Position numbers and translations under genes: made by a program | From: Acidiplasma aeolicum | Lineage (GTDB): Archaea > Thermoplasmatota > Thermoplasmata > Thermoplasmatales > Thermoplasmataceae | DNA: 44,244 bases | Assembly (NCBI RefSeq): GCF_001402945.1 | Contig: NZ_LKBG01000111.1 | Location: 1-44,244, forward strand | Direction: 5' to 3' | The notes under the pieces: generated by a model | Seen by the model: the letters and a program-made list of their open reading frames with translations, nothing else | What the model was told of the DNA's origin: nothing | Database searches by the model: none | In this document: piece by piece, positions 13,059-44,191 of the stretch | Position numbering within the stretch: the stretch's first letter is position 1 | Layout of the letters: each line of letters opens with the position of its first letter

Positions 13059-13721
13059 TTATTTAATAAACCTATTTATGAAGCTATTATCCAGATAGAT
13101 TTCTTTTTTATAATATATGTTTTTAAGATCTGTATCAAAAACCAAAAATCTCATTTTTACCCCACTCTTTAAAGCATCGATAAATTTATTCGAGAATTTT
13201 ATATCACGATCAAAATTTGGTGCGAAGGATTTGGCATTGTTATTAAATATCAAAAATAAAACATATGCATCATATCCTTTATTAATAAGATTTATTAGTA
13301 AATCCAGATGATGTGATGCCCTCTCACTTACCGCGTCAGGAAACATTGCAACACCATAATTCACAAGGGTGCATGATTTAACCTCTATGTATGCATTATT
13401 ATATTTAAAGTCAATACGGCGATTTCCAACAACAACCTCTGAAATGTATCCCGGCCTTATAAAATTGGATGCGATTTTATTATGGAATCTTGAATCATTA
13501 AATGTGTATACATCACCATTTTTTATAAAAGTTACCGAGTAATCTGTTTTTTTCCCGTGGGCCTCACGGATAAAAATTTCATTTCCGGGATATAATAACT
13601 CCTCAAGCCTTCCTGGATCATGCAGGTGGGCAAGAATATTAGTATTATTCATATTTAATTCCATTAGAAATCTATTTATTCTTTTTACAAATATTGCTTT
13701 ATAAATCTTCTCAAAACTCAT
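13059..13721 (-). CDS. sfsA: SfsA family protein (sugar fermentation stimulation protein homologue)
   Basis: A member of the SfsA family. Conserved motifs are the N-terminal KRINRF, HLHDPGRLEEL, the YIEVKSCTL strand with catalytic-type Glu and Lys, FPDAVSERASHH, and FAPNFDRD. The EVK and surrounding residues resemble PD-(D/E)XK nuclease folds; E. coli SfsA binds DNA, but the physiological role is unsettled. The frame opens at 13769 (236 residues), yet the internal ATG at 13721 (220 residues) is preferred. It gives the family's usual N-terminal length, and ATTTATC on the minus strand sits about 28 bp before it. The gene is 33 bases upstream of pgk. Confidence 0.87.
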   Translation of the reverse strand: MSFEKIYKAIFVKRINRFLMELNMNNTNILAHLHDPGRLEELLYPGNEIFIREAHGKKTDYSVTFIKNGDVYTFNDSRFHNKIASNFIRPGYISEVVVGNRRIDFKYNNAYIEVKSCTLVNYGVAMFPDAVSERASHHLDLLINLINKGYDAYVLFLIFNNNAKSFAPNFDRDIKFSNKFIDALKSGVKMRFLVFDTDLKNIYYKKEIYLDNSFINRFIK

Positions 13722-13830
13722 AATAACAGTATTTTCATGAATGCCGATAAATGGGCCTGTGCCATCCATAATATGACAATAATTAAAAGCATTTTAATTA
13801 TTTTATTTTATACATATATAGATAAGCAAA

Positions 13831-13838
13831 TTTATATA
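13831..13838 (+). promoter_or_regulatory. TATA box of the pentapeptide-repeat protein gene
   Basis: TTTATATA, centred 29 bp before the ATG at 13864. It favours that ATG over the in-frame GTG at 13846, which would fall upstream of the predicted transcription start. Confidence 0.55.
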
Positions 13839-13863
13839 CAAGCTTGTGATATATATAATTGAT

Positions 13864-14712
13864 ATGATTAATAGAACCAGGAAATTAATTATTGCAATCA
13901 TTGCGATAATAATAGCAGCCATATTTGTGGAAATGGCATTTAATCCAGCTGTAAATAATAATTCAAATTATATAAACGAAAAGGCAGTGGGGTCCAATAA
14001 TGGTTATCTCATTAACGGTACAATTCAAAATGGTACGGTTAGCCATGCATATATAAAAAACTATTCTATAAATTCCTCAAAAATAAACCATGCATATATA
14101 ACAAATGCATCCTTAAATAATACATATGTTAGCAATGCAATGATAAAGTATTCATATATAAATAACTCAAGGTTAAATAATGTTACAATTATGAATGATG
14201 GTATTAACAATACAGTAATTTATAATGCAACGTTAATAGATGTTTCACTTAATAATGTAACCATATACAATGTTAGCATTATAGATGCCAGTGCTGTAAA
14301 TTCTTATATAAGAAATGCAACTATTAATCATGCAAGTCTGATTGCCTCGGTTCTTTTAAACTCCACCTTTAATAATGGTACAGCATCATATAGCATTCTT
14401 GTTAGTGTAAATCTAACAAATGCAACAGTGAATTTAACTAATTTTACCTTTGTAATTAATCTTAATAACTTTTTTAATCAGGCTTACTTACTTGGAAATT
14501 CCAGCTTTAATAATTTGTCATACCATTTGGGGCTTTCAAATAGTACCTTACTTGCCAATATAAATAATCAGGTTAATAATCAGCCGTCAACACCTGTTAC
14601 ATCACCCACAGGCCCGGTTAAGATAGGTAATGGTCCTCAACCAGTAGCACCATTACCTCCCATAAATCCCACAAATCCCCCAAATAATCCTCCAGCACAT
14701 CCATTACTATAA
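13864..14712 (+). CDS. Exported pentapeptide-repeat-like protein rich in N-glycosylation sequons
   Basis: A 282-residue protein, with the ATG at 13864 preferred on TATA spacing. A basic start (RTRK) and a hydrophobic helix at about 8-27 give a signal peptide or anchor. Residues 46-195 are 30 tandem five-residue units in unbroken register, consensus N-A-T-I-N: small residue at the second position and Leu, Ile, Val or Phe at the fourth. This is the i-2/i pattern of pentapeptide-repeat beta helices. Twelve units have N-x-T/S in register and six further sequons arise across units, so the outer face may be densely glycosylated. The tail (about 240-282) is Pro-rich. The function is unknown; a surface stalk or coat component is one guess. 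Confidence 0.82.
   Translation: MINRTRKLIIAIIAIIIAAIFVEMAFNPAVNNNSNYINEKAVGSNNGYLINGTIQNGTVSHAYIKNYSINSSKINHAYITNASLNNTYVSNAMIKYSYINNSRLNNVTIMNDGINNTVIYNATLIDVSLNNVTIYNVSIIDASAVNSYIRNATINHASLIASVLLNSTFNNGTASYSILVSVNLTNATVNLTNFTFVINLNNFFNQAYLLGNSSFNNLSYHLGLSNSTLLANINNQVNNQPSTPVTSPTGPVKIGNGPQPVAPLPPINPTNPPNNPPAHPLL
13999..14448 (+). repeat. Tandem 15-bp-period coding repeat (30 pentapeptide units)
   Basis: The stretch encodes 30 consecutive degenerate five-residue repeats with no register break. Each is 15 bp; DNA copies have diverged while the protein pattern (Asn, small, Thr/Ser/Tyr, aliphatic, polar) persists. The regular length implies about 7.5 turns of a four-sided beta helix. Confidence 0.8.
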
Positions 14713-14947: not shown

Positions 14948-16948
14948 ATGAATCCAATATATTTATTATGGTTAATTACAGGCCTTATGGCTGTGGCAAT
15001 GGCCTATGCAATCAACCTATCCAGAAGGGCAGATAACATCATGAATAAATTTTTTGTTTATTTAATTCTGGGTATGATGAACAGCATGCTCATTGCTCCA
15101 GTATTTTATTTTATATTTATATTATCGCTGTTAAAGACAATTGAGTTTTCAGTAATAATAATGATGCTGGAGGTGCTTCCATTTTTATTTAAATTTTTAT
15201 CAGATCTTATGCAGAATTCAGGTTCTGTAAAAAAATCGTTTTTATTTTATTATACAATATTTTTTGTTATATTTGATGAATTAATTATGAGTATAGATTT
15301 TAATCTGATTACTGCTAACAGTTACCTGCATTTTTTATTTTTACAACCTTTAAATGCAGTATTTCAGGCCGTATCAACGTACTGGTTTGTATTCCCAATG
15401 GCATTTGAGATGCTCATAACGTCTTTAATTTTAAAAAATTCTCTGAAAAAATTAGTATTTATTATTTTTGCAATGCAGTCTCTGGTAATGCTATTAATGC
15501 CAACTGCGATAAATAATTCTTTATATGCCAGGGTTGCAGTTTATCTTTCCGGTGCCATAATGACCGGCTTTTTTATTTACATTTTTGAATATCTTTATAG
15601 AAAGCAATCCCTTCATAAAACAGAGGGAAAATACATTCTACAGCTTTTGGGAGCATATACATTAATGATGGCGGGGGTATTTATATGGCAGTACAGTAAA
15701 AACGTTTACCTGATTTCAGCCTCAATGATTATTGATATGATTGTTTATCTTAATGGTCTTTTAAGATACAATTTTGACGATAAACAATTTTTCTGGATTA
15801 CAGCCAGAAGATGGTCAGTTTTGTATATGACCATGGTTTTTACATCAGAATTTTTCATGGGATTAACATTTGATGCCCAGTACTATGGTGCCGGCACGTA
15901 TCTAATCTCAATGGGACTTGCCTCAATAGGCGGAAGCATCATAAACATTATCAGTGCCTCACTTTATGATTTTATCGTCTTTTTCGCTGATGTTGCACTT
16001 TCTCCATGGTTTTTAATAATGATGGGAATAGAAATGGGGTCACTTGTGGTATTTAAAATAAGGACAACAAAACAGATTGAAAATAAAATCAGGTTAATTC
16101 TGATGCTTCTTGCCTATGCACTTTACACTGTAATTGTTCCATCATTTTTAATTCCAAACAATTCAATGATTCCATTTATTGGTTGGACCATGGGAATAGG
16201 TTCTGGTGGTCCAGTTGCTCCATTATTAATCATACCAATGGTTTTAACATATGTTATAAGTGGCATATTATCATTATTGTTTGGGTCAAGACAGCTATGT
16301 TCGGTATTTTGTTCCGCACCTGTTATGTATCAGGGTACATTTTATGATTCAATGAAAAAATTCAACAGGCAGACAAAAACAAGCAGGGCAATTACACTAA
16401 ATAATAAATCGGGCCAGAGACTTTATAAAACTGTTTCCTTGATTGTTTATGCCTCAATTGGAATTACAGCGGTTTTATCATTTCTGGATTCAATACACAT
16501 AACATCATTTTATTTCTATGGTACGGATCCGGAATACATGCTTTACCTGTTTTATTTCGGTGTTGTCTGGTATATAGTTTTTATAACCATGCCCCTTCTT
16601 GGATCCTATGCGTGCATAAACACAGGATACTGTCACTGGGGTAACTTTAACAGGTTTGTTTCCAGATTCGGATTTTTTAAGTTAAAGGTCAGGGATTCAG
16701 ATACCTGCCTTACATGTAAAACAAGGGATTGTGCAACAGCATGCCCTGTTGGAAATTCCGCCATGCCCGGCAGTTTTATAAAAACTGGTGCGTACAAGGA
16801 TTCAAGGTGTGTAGGAATAGGCGACTGCATAGAGGCATGCCCACATGATAATATATTTGTATACGATGTTAGAAATTATTTAAGGGAAAGGCTTGGCGGT
16901 GAAAAAAAGAAAGATACCTCTGGTTCTAAAAAGGATAAACTAATTTAA
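14948..16948 (+). CDS. Polytopic membrane protein with C-terminal ferredoxin-like domain
   Basis: A 666-residue protein with roughly a dozen predicted membrane helices over residues 1-570, then a cytosolic ferredoxin-like domain. Cysteines: C451-x3-C455 after one helix, C556-x5-C562 after the last helix, then C587-x2-C590-x4-C595-x3-C599-P and C621-x5-C627-x3-C631-P. The second ferredoxin motif has Ile624 where the usual second Cys stands, so a [4Fe-4S] plus [3Fe-4S] pair is likely. The layout recalls NapH-type membrane polyferredoxins without their standard motif. It probably moves electrons between a soluble donor and the membrane. Residues 1-230 are paralogous to the next gene's product. 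Confidence 0.75.
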   Translation: MNPIYLLWLITGLMAVAMAYAINLSRRADNIMNKFFVYLILGMMNSMLIAPVFYFIFILSLLKTIEFSVIIMMLEVLPFLFKFLSDLMQNSGSVKKSFLFYYTIFFVIFDELIMSIDFNLITANSYLHFLFLQPLNAVFQAVSTYWFVFPMAFEMLITSLILKNSLKKLVFIIFAMQSLVMLLMPTAINNSLYARVAVYLSGAIMTGFFIYIFEYLYRKQSLHKTEGKYILQLLGAYTLMMAGVFIWQYSKNVYLISASMIIDMIVYLNGLLRYNFDDKQFFWITARRWSVLYMTMVFTSEFFMGLTFDAQYYGAGTYLISMGLASIGGSIINIISASLYDFIVFFADVALSPWFLIMMGIEMGSLVVFKIRTTKQIENKIRLILMLLAYALYTVIVPSFLIPNNSMIPFIGWTMGIGSGGPVAPLLIIPMVLTYVISGILSLLFGSRQLCSVFCSAPVMYQGTFYDSMKKFNRQTKTSRAITLNNKSGQRLYKTVSLIVYASIGITAVLSFLDSIHITSFYFYGTDPEYMLYLFYFGVVWYIVFITMPLLGSYACINTGYCHWGNFNRFVSRFGFFKLKVRDSDTCLTCKTRDCATACPVGNSAMPGSFIKTGAYKDSRCVGIGDCIEACPHDNIFVYDVRNYLRERLGGEKKKDTSGSKKDKLI

Positions 16949-42088: not shown

Positions 42089-44191
42089 TTATCTGTTTCT
42101 CTTTTTGATTTCAATAAATATGGCAAGAATTAATATCAAAAGGATTATTAAATCGAAGATTGTAATATTTGCAAATATTGATTCTGCCAGAATGTTAATG
42201 CCCAGAATTTTAAAAAATGATCCAAGCGCAGAGTTATAAACAGTTATTAATTTTTCATTTGGGCTTTTAATAAGGTATTCCTGTGAATGAAGATTAAATG
42301 ATTTGTTATCCATATTATATGATATATTGGCATAGGGAATTACAAATTCTCCAGGCCCATTTAATTTAATCTTATATGTAAAATTATAGTATTCACCAGG
42401 TTTTAGTGTAATATTATGTATATCAGAATTTCCAGAAATTAATGATAATGATCCGGTTTTTTCATAATTTTCAATAAAGTAATCCTCGGATATATTAAGA
42501 TAATATAATGTCGAGTTATCCCGGTTTTGAACCTCATTAATTACTGTGGCCACATGATTATTCTCACTGATTTTAACGTTAAAATACAGGTATGCAGGAA
42601 AGGTATAATTGAAGGAAATATTACTCTGGTCAGGATTAAAATTTTGCGTATTATAATATGTTGTATTTGTACTTTCATTGAGAATAGAAACAAAATTTTT
42701 ATTATTTGAATAAAAAATTGAGTTTATTGATGTTTTACTATTACTGGAATCTGGATAAATTACACCAATGGCAGATACAGTCCCATTAAAATTAATTGTG
42801 GAATTATAACCAATTATATCTGACATATTTATTTTATGATATTTACCGGAGGAATGGAATACACTGGGATTTTCAAATAGTCCGGCCAAAAACCTTTCAT
42901 TATCACTGGTTTTATTCCCACCCAAAAGTAGGGAATAATTGCCATAACCATATATCAAGGCTGATGACCTGAAATTTTCTGAATCATATTTTTTTATTAT
43001 ATTATACATTGATAAATTAGAATTGTAGTTATTAATAACATTTTTAATATATTTTGATTCATTGATATCCTGACCATAAACATATAATTTATATTTTGAA
43101 TAATTGTATGCAAGCAGTAACTGCGGATTGATAATTCCAGAGTTTTTTAGGATCCCTGAGGTTCCATCAGAGCCTAAAGTATAATTATTTTTGGAAACAA
43201 CAACAAAAAGCCCTGATGGTACCATTGATAATAATTTTTTAAGGTTCCCTGATATTGGCAGATGTACTATAGAATTTGAGATGTATGTAAGATTATTGCT
43301 TAATATGGATGCTGCAAGAATAATATTTGAATTAATATTAGTACTGTTCTGGGCAAGAATCACCGTGTTTATTAATGATCCATTCTCTGTAATAATGTTA
43401 ATAGATGCCTGAATACCCACATTATTTAGATTATTAGCCGAATTTGCCTCTGTATTTGCATGGTTTATACCGGCAGGAATTACAAAAAATGATGAGATAA
43501 CAATTAATGTTATAATTACAACAATTATGGCCTCAGCCCTGGCCATCCCTTTATGCCTTTTTTTAAACAGTGAGGCGATAACACCTGAAACCAGAATAAC
43601 AATTGCCAGGTTCTCTATAATATTAATTATAATAGGATATACAAGTGAGTAGTTAAAAATGCCTGAGGAACCATAAATGCTTGTTTCTGGATTTAAAGCC
43701 ACAGCATTATTTTTTCCTATTGCTGCAATAATTATGCTGTAAATTGTTGAAATTAGTGGTTCATTCTTTATATCTATTAAATTAACATTGTATGGAATCA
43801 TATTTGGTAATATGGATAATATTCTCTCCACCCTGCCTGTTATATCAGGAATTGCAGAGGTATATGATGTTATGTCAAGAACTGATATAAGCACAAGGAT
43901 CATAAAGGAAAATGTTAAAGAATACAATAAAATGGATGTGCCCATGGCCCTGAGCCCTTTTCTTGTGCTGATTCCAACAATAATGCCTATTATAATCCAG
44001 CTTATCATTATTGCATAATAATGTATGGGATTTCCTGCGAGGAGACCAATGATGCCCAATAATAGTGGGAGACCATATCCAAGATATGGACCAAGAAGGT
44101 TTATCAGTGGTGAGTAAAGCGGTGATACCATATAATATGAAAGCATGACCACACCGATACCACCGGCGATTAAGCCCAAAAGTTTTCCCAT
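42089..44191 (-). CDS. Large membrane-anchored protein with sequon-rich external domain
   Basis: A 700-residue protein. Six N-terminal membrane helices (about 5-22, 38-53, 58-75, 84-105, 183-207 and 220-240) precede an external domain of some 420 residues and a single C-terminal helix (about 673-692) with a basic tail. The external part is rich in Asn, Ser and Tyr and carries more than twenty N-x-S/T sequons, so it is probably heavily glycosylated. It has no cysteine and no enzymatic motif I can see. The start lies just after an AT-rich TATA-like region (44196-44220). No family is recognised; it is possibly specific to the Thermoplasmatales. Confidence 0.78.
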   Translation of the reverse strand: MGKLLGLIAGGIGVVMLSYYMVSPLYSPLINLLGPYLGYGLPLLLGIIGLLAGNPIHYYAIMISWIIIGIIVGISTRKGLRAMGTSILLYSLTFSFMILVLISVLDITSYTSAIPDITGRVERILSILPNMIPYNVNLIDIKNEPLISTIYSIIIAAIGKNNAVALNPETSIYGSSGIFNYSLVYPIIINIIENLAIVILVSGVIASLFKKRHKGMARAEAIIVVIITLIVISSFFVIPAGINHANTEANSANNLNNVGIQASINIITENGSLINTVILAQNSTNINSNIILAASILSNNLTYISNSIVHLPISGNLKKLLSMVPSGLFVVVSKNNYTLGSDGTSGILKNSGIINPQLLLAYNYSKYKLYVYGQDINESKYIKNVINNYNSNLSMYNIIKKYDSENFRSSALIYGYGNYSLLLGGNKTSDNERFLAGLFENPSVFHSSGKYHKINMSDIIGYNSTINFNGTVSAIGVIYPDSSNSKTSINSIFYSNNKNFVSILNESTNTTYYNTQNFNPDQSNISFNYTFPAYLYFNVKISENNHVATVINEVQNRDNSTLYYLNISEDYFIENYEKTGSLSLISGNSDIHNITLKPGEYYNFTYKIKLNGPGEFVIPYANISYNMDNKSFNLHSQEYLIKSPNEKLITVYNSALGSFFKILGINILAESIFANITIFDLIILLILILAIFIEIKKRNR

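Follow-up and report, generated by a model that had tools for sequence, protein, structure and literature searches.

An unbroken run of 30 five-residue units, rich in N-glycosylation sequons (N-x-S/T, where x is not P), forms the centre of a 282-residue protein encoded in the 44,244-nucleotide stretch of Acidiplasma aeolicum DNA analysed here (the window), and the units show a further period of three. With modest confidence, we lean towards reading the protein as a type II (N-in, C-out) membrane-anchored, N-glycosylated beta-solenoid of three pentads per coil that serves as a surface spacer of Thermoplasmatales. An earlier, sequence-only reading of this DNA had described pentads with sequons, which are real, and had interpreted them as a glycan-studded, four-sided helix of 7.5 turns on the cell surface. 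The exported beta-helix layout, the sequon excess, an oligosaccharyltransferase, and an order of archaea lacking an S-layer all agree with that interpretation, with the exception of its four-sided, 7.5-turn helix.

The pentad gene and its homologues

The source genome spans 1.78 Mb in 296 contigs. The gene and its product are laid out as follows.

13831..13838, + strand: TATA-like element tttatata, 26 nt 5' of the ATG, read from the sequence
13864..14712, + strand: gene for a putative sequon-rich pentad-repeat surface protein of 282 aa (open reading frame, with homologues in three sister-genus genomes)
13885..13941, + strand: residues 8-26, predicted signal anchor or transmembrane helix following R4, R6 and K7, N-in, C-out
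13942..13998, + strand: residues 27-45, Asn-rich linker whose length differs among the aligned homologues
13999..14448, + strand: residues 46-195, 30 pentads with 19 sequons, predicted beta-solenoid of about 10 coils of 15 residues
14449..14568, + strand: residues 196-235, where the repeat degenerates into an end or cap, with 3 more sequons, from the sequence
14569..14709, + strand: residues 236-282, Pro-rich C-terminal tail, probably disordered and also present in the homologues (sequence and alignment)

The start codon (ATG at 13864) is backed by alignment with homologues that share the same start and layout, and the spacing of the TATA-like element is compatible with a leaderless transcript. 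The N-terminal hydrophobic segment and the Pro-rich tail noticed earlier are both real by hydropathy and sequence. Specifically, residues 8-26 reach a Kyte-Doolittle value of 3.00 against 1.14 for the next best segment of the protein, hydropathy across all 282 residues detected no membrane-like segment beyond residue 26, and AlphaFold2 (AF2) predicted a helix at residues 2-26 (pLDDT about 58-86).

Dividing the sequence bears out the claim that residues 46-195 form 30 pentads without a break, as well as the claimed pairing of a small residue at i-2 with an aliphatic residue at i, which occurs in 28 of the 30 pentads in the best phase (mean 7.4 and maximum 15 in 2000 shuffles). Aliphatic residues are autocorrelated at lags 5 (+0.47), 10 (+0.34), and 15 (+0.49), and all remaining lags give values near zero or below. 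By frequency, the consensus pentad reads N(i+2)-A/S(i-2)-T/Y/S(i-1)-I/L(i)-N(i+1). The Asn content of the repeat region is very high (21%), and the repeat is nearly uncharged (8 charged residues in 155), which suits a very acidic medium. Tandem Repeats Finder detected no DNA-level array within the repeat, so the pentad pattern is maintained at the protein level. Recent tandem duplication was ruled out as the origin of the repeat, with the sole array, a 28-nt one, confined to the tail; duplication is also disfavoured by codon usage, as same-codon use in the window gene is not raised at lag 3 (25/43 versus 15/28 at lag 2).

A search with the repeat region alone retrieved homologues in three species of a sister genus of the same family, namely G085 (321 aa), G086 (282 aa), and G087, whose copy carries one in-frame TAA. 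All three share the same architecture, in which R/K residues precede a hydrophobic segment (8-26), and a linker leads into unbroken pentads that carry sequons and then a Pro-rich tail. At 27-33% identity, the homologues keep the pentad register unbroken, and the 45 residues that G086 lacks relative to G085 amount to exactly nine pentads, or three whole coils of 15 residues. Within the sister genus, dN/dS is 0.16-0.23, indicating that the protein is under purifying selection.

These observations bear on the idea of a mucin-like, disordered stalk, rich in Asn, Ser, and Thr, in which the pentads would be an accident of biased low-complexity composition. The high Asn content, a tail that looks disordered, and single-sequence AF2, which was uninformative (pLDDT 36 overall and about 30 over the repeat), would agree with such a stalk, as would the tendency of AF2 to over-predict solenoids (PMC11795689). 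A single register in 28 of 30 pentads, its persistence in divergent homologues, an indel of whole pentads, purifying selection, and five models that each average above pLDDT 95 on only four alignment rows argue against it, and we consider it very improbable.

The distribution of the family is patchy, with the gene absent from the two other species of its own genus and missing in most species of the sister genus, so the pentad protein is not an essential coat protein. A single-sequence scan of the genome-contig collection returned no homologues, nor did a family-alignment search of viral contigs or a search among phages; plasmids yielded nothing beyond a weak Lactiplantibacillus match (E 9e-3), and NCBIfam and PHROGs yielded nothing more than sub-threshold pentapeptide or unknown families. 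Several candidates were set aside. First-round weak matches in the same genus (G014, G015, and G009) proved to be open reading frames for an acyl-CoA dehydrogenase, a peptidase, and other unrelated proteins (L003, L004, and L006), G035 is a cytosolic ion channel of the ordinary pentapeptide-repeat type, and L021 and L022 belong to a different, irregular beta-helix family. The interrupted homologue of G087 (L036, C1 772300-773247), split by its one in-frame TAA, lies in a single-contig genome.

Coil number and related folds

A period above the pentad was sought by permuting whole units and scoring unit-to-unit similarity at each lag. The clearest signal is at lag 3, in the window protein (z = +3.7, p<0.001), G085 (+4.2), and G087 (+3.2), with G086 at +0.6; G085 also scores at lags 6 and 9 (z +2.7 and +3.6), and the shorter G086 at lags 6 and 7 (z +2.1 and +2.9). 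A four-pentad period was not significant at lag 4 in the window protein or its homologues (z at most +1.6). The lag-3 signal resides in positions i+1 (pooled z 4.9), i+2 (2.8), and i-1 (2.1), which presumably point outward. Written in rows of three pentads, the window protein and G085 each show aligned units; for example, the third column of G085 reads NTYIY, NSVVW, NTSIW, NAHIL, NSTLY, NTSIY. Sequons are spaced exactly 15 residues apart in ten pairs, compared with three pairs at 20. Among the controls, a canonical pentapeptide-repeat channel protein gave z = +4.4 at lag 4 and nothing at lag 3, whereas HetL and one designed pentapeptide protein gave neither signal; the test is therefore informative when positive, and a missing lag 4 proves little.

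Structure prediction points in the same direction. AF2 was run on residues 46-150 aligned with three homologous segments (depth 4), and all five models, entirely beta, have a mean pLDDT above 95 (best 97.4, pTM 0.88). Strand breaks recur exactly every 15 residues, at 11, 26, 41, 56, 71, 86, and 101. This spacing may carry a small bias, as one of the four alignment rows comes from a segment shifted by 105 residues, a multiple of 15. The beta helix anticipated by the sequence-only reading appears in the model, but its coils are of 15 residues, not four-sided. By local similarity, Foldseek retrieved pentapeptide proteins as well as luminal domains of SV2 (synaptic vesicle glycoprotein 2), with E-values down to 4e-8 and pentapeptide proteins at the top. 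Superposition was poor, with TM 0.14-0.47 and rmsd 6-12 Å among the 50 PDB matches listed, and could reflect coil number or handedness. A predicted 402-aa protein of salmon gill poxvirus (A0A0H4Y153) fits the model at TM 0.97 and rmsd 0.6 Å with 15% identity, which may reflect a fold common to both or a habit of AF2 that affects both. AF2 is known to yield confident yet unrealistic beta-solenoids for repeat sequences, a behaviour tested mostly with perfectly repeated random units (PMC11795689), so the 15-residue-coil model is only supporting evidence, and the coil number rests on the agreement between the model and the independent lag test.

A canonical right-handed quadrilateral pentapeptide helix is unlikely. 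It would wind four pentads per coil into 7.5 coils of about 36 Å, exported and Asn-rich, with N-glycans on its outside and the SV2 luminal domain as its relative. Profile matches lend it weight: Pfam PF13599 (E=1.3e-7) scores 32.0 against a gathering cut-off of 38, which the homologues also miss (21.7 and 26.7), and the match to PF00805 named in the sequence-only reading does exist (E=1.1e-3), but its score of 18.9 falls below the cut-off of 20.2. Profile comparison against the PDB recovered designed pentapeptide proteins (E=2e-10), HetL (1e-6), and the SV2 luminal domain (E 0.35), and Foldseek likewise found both pentapeptide proteins and SV2. The weak lag-3 signal of G086, the solenoid bias of AF2, and the low single-sequence pLDDT also count against three sides. 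On the other side stand the strong lag-3 period beside a non-significant lag 4, the 15-residue coil of the model, TM values of at most 0.47 among the 50 PDB matches listed, and the near-perfect fit of the predicted poxvirus protein. The sequence period, the AF2 breaks, and the poor superposition make about ten three-sided turns the better reading and tell against the proposed 7.5 four-sided turns. The repeat thus probably winds three pentads, or 15 residues, into each three-sided coil.

Pentapeptide-repeat proteins (PF00805 and PF13599; HetL, MfpA, and Qnr) resemble the window protein in the unit of five, small i-2, hydrophobic i, unbroken tandem, and predicted beta-helix. The 28 conforming pentads exceed the at least eight contiguous ones by which such proteins are recognized. 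Four pentads (20 residues) per coil is not what lag 3, the AF2 coil, and the poor TM values give, and of the consensus [STAV][DN][LF][STR][G] only i-2 and i fit, i+1 being N. Thr/Ser/Tyr occupies i-1 and Asn i+2, in place of Asp/Asn and Gly, so that the published consensus differs at both positions (PMC8145042). Unlike pentapeptide-repeat proteins, the window protein is membrane-anchored, presumably exported, sequon-rich, below the Pfam cut-offs, and of three-pentad period. Computationally, we would therefore not file it as a member, although it resembles one as a short-unit beta-solenoid.

The SV2 luminal domain has few sequons, and these lie outside its repeat consensus. It is a loop in a 12-TM transporter with four-and-a-half to five coils and four sides, which sets it apart from the window protein. 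Luminal domain 4 of SV2A/B/C is nevertheless an extracytoplasmic pentapeptide beta-helix, as the window protein would be, and SV2's carries N-glycans (PMC8145042). N-glycosylated pentapeptide helices outside the cytosol were thus already known, and the earlier remark that pentapeptide proteins are usually cytosolic overlooks both SV2 and thylakoid-lumenal members (PMC8145042).

A fold with 15 residues per coil, the number suggested for the window protein by the AF2 model and the lag test, also exists in the spruce budworm antifreeze protein (CfAFP), a disulphide-bonded insect protein forming a triangular beta-helix with outward T-x-T. The archaeal pentad proteins have no Cys beyond the anchor, in contrast to CfAFP. 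The corresponding family, PF05264, has no match in the window protein itself and sub-threshold ones in one homologue (E 0.96, score 9.9 versus a cut-off of 25.9) and a related archaeal insert (E 0.006). CfAFP has been classed as a left-handed beta-helix (PMC13123833).

Pentads occur in a second setting. Across 400 Thermoplasmata genomes, the family profile found ABC-2 permeases (Pfam PF12679) with an extracytoplasmic pentad insert. In various Thermoplasmata (L060, L062-L069, and L071-L074), about 10-20 pentads of the form small-x-aliphatic, often N-x-S/T, lie between TM1 and TM2. These share the N-x-S/T-aliphatic style and the class of archaea with the window protein, but their host is a transporter subunit, and they are placed much as SV2 carries its luminal pentapeptide domain. 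Their pooled lag z values are 1.0 at lag 3, 2.4 at lag 6, and -1.2 at lag 4. The inserts indicate that exported pentad helices recur in the class.

Sequons and possible N-glycosylation

Residues 46-195 contain 19 sequons, with the Asn at pentad position 1 in 12, position 5 in 5, and position 3 in 2. The 12 in-register sequons counted earlier are borne out, and the six said to cross units become seven on recount (N at i+1 in 5 and at i-1 in 2). Expectation depends on the null: shuffled composition predicts 6.8, keeping the five pentad columns predicts 13.2 (p=0.003), and keeping fifteen columns predicts 15.2 (p=0.02). Under the fifteen-column null, the homologues show no significant excess (p=0.27 and 0.12), which weakens any claim of an excess over every null. 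The pentad consensus by itself accounts for most of the excess, leaving a smaller share beyond it.

Across all 282 residues, the window protein has 24 sequons, 2.6 times expectation. The other genes of the window together reach 0.97 times expectation once a sequon-rich membrane protein at 42089-44191 (- strand) is set aside. That 700-aa protein carries 24 sequons (1.9 times expectation), has no Pfam match, and is likely another surface glycoprotein. Within the window, strong excess is confined to these two membrane proteins, so it marks likely surface proteins of the genome. The genome encodes one STT3/AglB oligosaccharyltransferase, which, together with sequons above expectation and a predicted export signal, is the combination by which an archaeal N-glycoprotein is recognized. 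We infer that glycans are attached to sequons of the repeat, as the term glycan-studded implied.

Asn ladders are common in beta-helices. The Asn and Thr/Ser of the repeat could therefore serve the fold itself, through ladders and turns on stacked coils, leaving the sequons as a by-product with few or none glycosylated. The modest fifteen-column excess and its loss of significance in the homologues suit this explanation, as does the about equal conservation of sequon Asn (17/39) and other Asn (15/37) between the window protein and G085. Between G085 and G086, however, sequon Asn is kept in 23 of 29 cases against 17 of 32 for other Asn, and sequon S/T in 23 of 29 against 55 of 96 for other S/T. 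In addition, N-P-S/T is absent, the window protein has the reverse motif S/T-x-N at just 7 places and its homologues at 1-3, the excess over the five-column null persists, and another membrane protein of the window shares the excess that the bulk of its genes lack. We thus consider a pure by-product improbable and prefer a repeat that is glycosylated in part. In the stop-interrupted G087 copy, the sequon excess is the lowest among the family members (9 versus 7.8), which, as one case, is compatible with loss of function.

Possible surface role and genomic site

Thermoplasmatales are described as lacking a paracrystalline S-layer, in keeping with the earlier suggestion of an organism without a cell wall, and cryo-EM of two species revealed a dense, unordered protein layer of ~20 nm whose proteins are unidentified (PMC12448462). 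The pentad family offers a concrete, testable candidate for this layer. Under the favoured account, residues 8-26 would hold the protein in the membrane with its N-terminus inside, and the short linker would lead to a solenoid of about 30 pentads that folds outside the cell. Aliphatic i and small i-2 residues would point inward, and Asn, Thr/Ser, and others outward. With 15 residues to the coil, about 10 coils would extend 48 Å, assuming a rise of 4.8 Å per coil. AglB would add N-glycans to some outward Asn during or after export, and only to part of them, as sequons stacked one coil apart (about 4.8 Å) make full occupancy sterically difficult. The Pro-rich tail would carry the end further outward, and the low charge and sugar coat would yield an acid-stable spacer within the unordered exterior layer that replaces an S-layer. 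That the protein is a coat component is a reasoned guess to which we give not quite even chances, with adhesion or a receptor-like function as other possible roles.

More tentatively, and with our judgement inclined somewhat against it, the family may constitute a new beta-solenoid class of wall-less archaea, with three pentads per coil, a consensus that is itself a sequon, a glycan column on each face at one-coil spacing, and a coat that is modular by whole coils. Should the three-pentad coil be true, a five-residue repeat would build two helices, three- and four-sided, and a Pfam pentapeptide match alone would not tell the fold. The family would likewise show how glycosylation sites can be built into the consensus of a solenoid.

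The genomic site varies among relatives. In the two nearest congeners (L016 and L017), gene order is common with the window as far as sfsA. The sfsA gene itself (window 13059-13864) is inverted in both, and to its right the window differs, carrying the pentad gene together with others. The homologous site in other species of the sister genus is occupied by a glycosyltransferase-like gene with another beta-helix, by a different anchored protein, or by no comparable gene. These differing contents place the pentad gene in a variable set of surface genes, and its site in G085-G087 is, as gene content suggests, an exchangeable surface-protein slot in related species. The different anchored protein (L089 2287-3165 and L091 1333-2223) has 22-23 sequons in about 295 aa and adjoins an ABC transporter. 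Elsewhere, genome G055 (L023 1276-2000) encodes another anchored, sequon-bearing pentad protein and belongs to another family within the order; this protein is broken by stops and lies nearer the classic A(D/N)LXX consensus. Finally, downstream in the window, 14948-16948 (+ strand) encodes a 666-aa polytopic membrane protein with a C-terminal 4Fe-4S dicluster domain; it has a paralogue on contig C45, about 41% identical over the C-terminal half, and a relative in G001 at C17.
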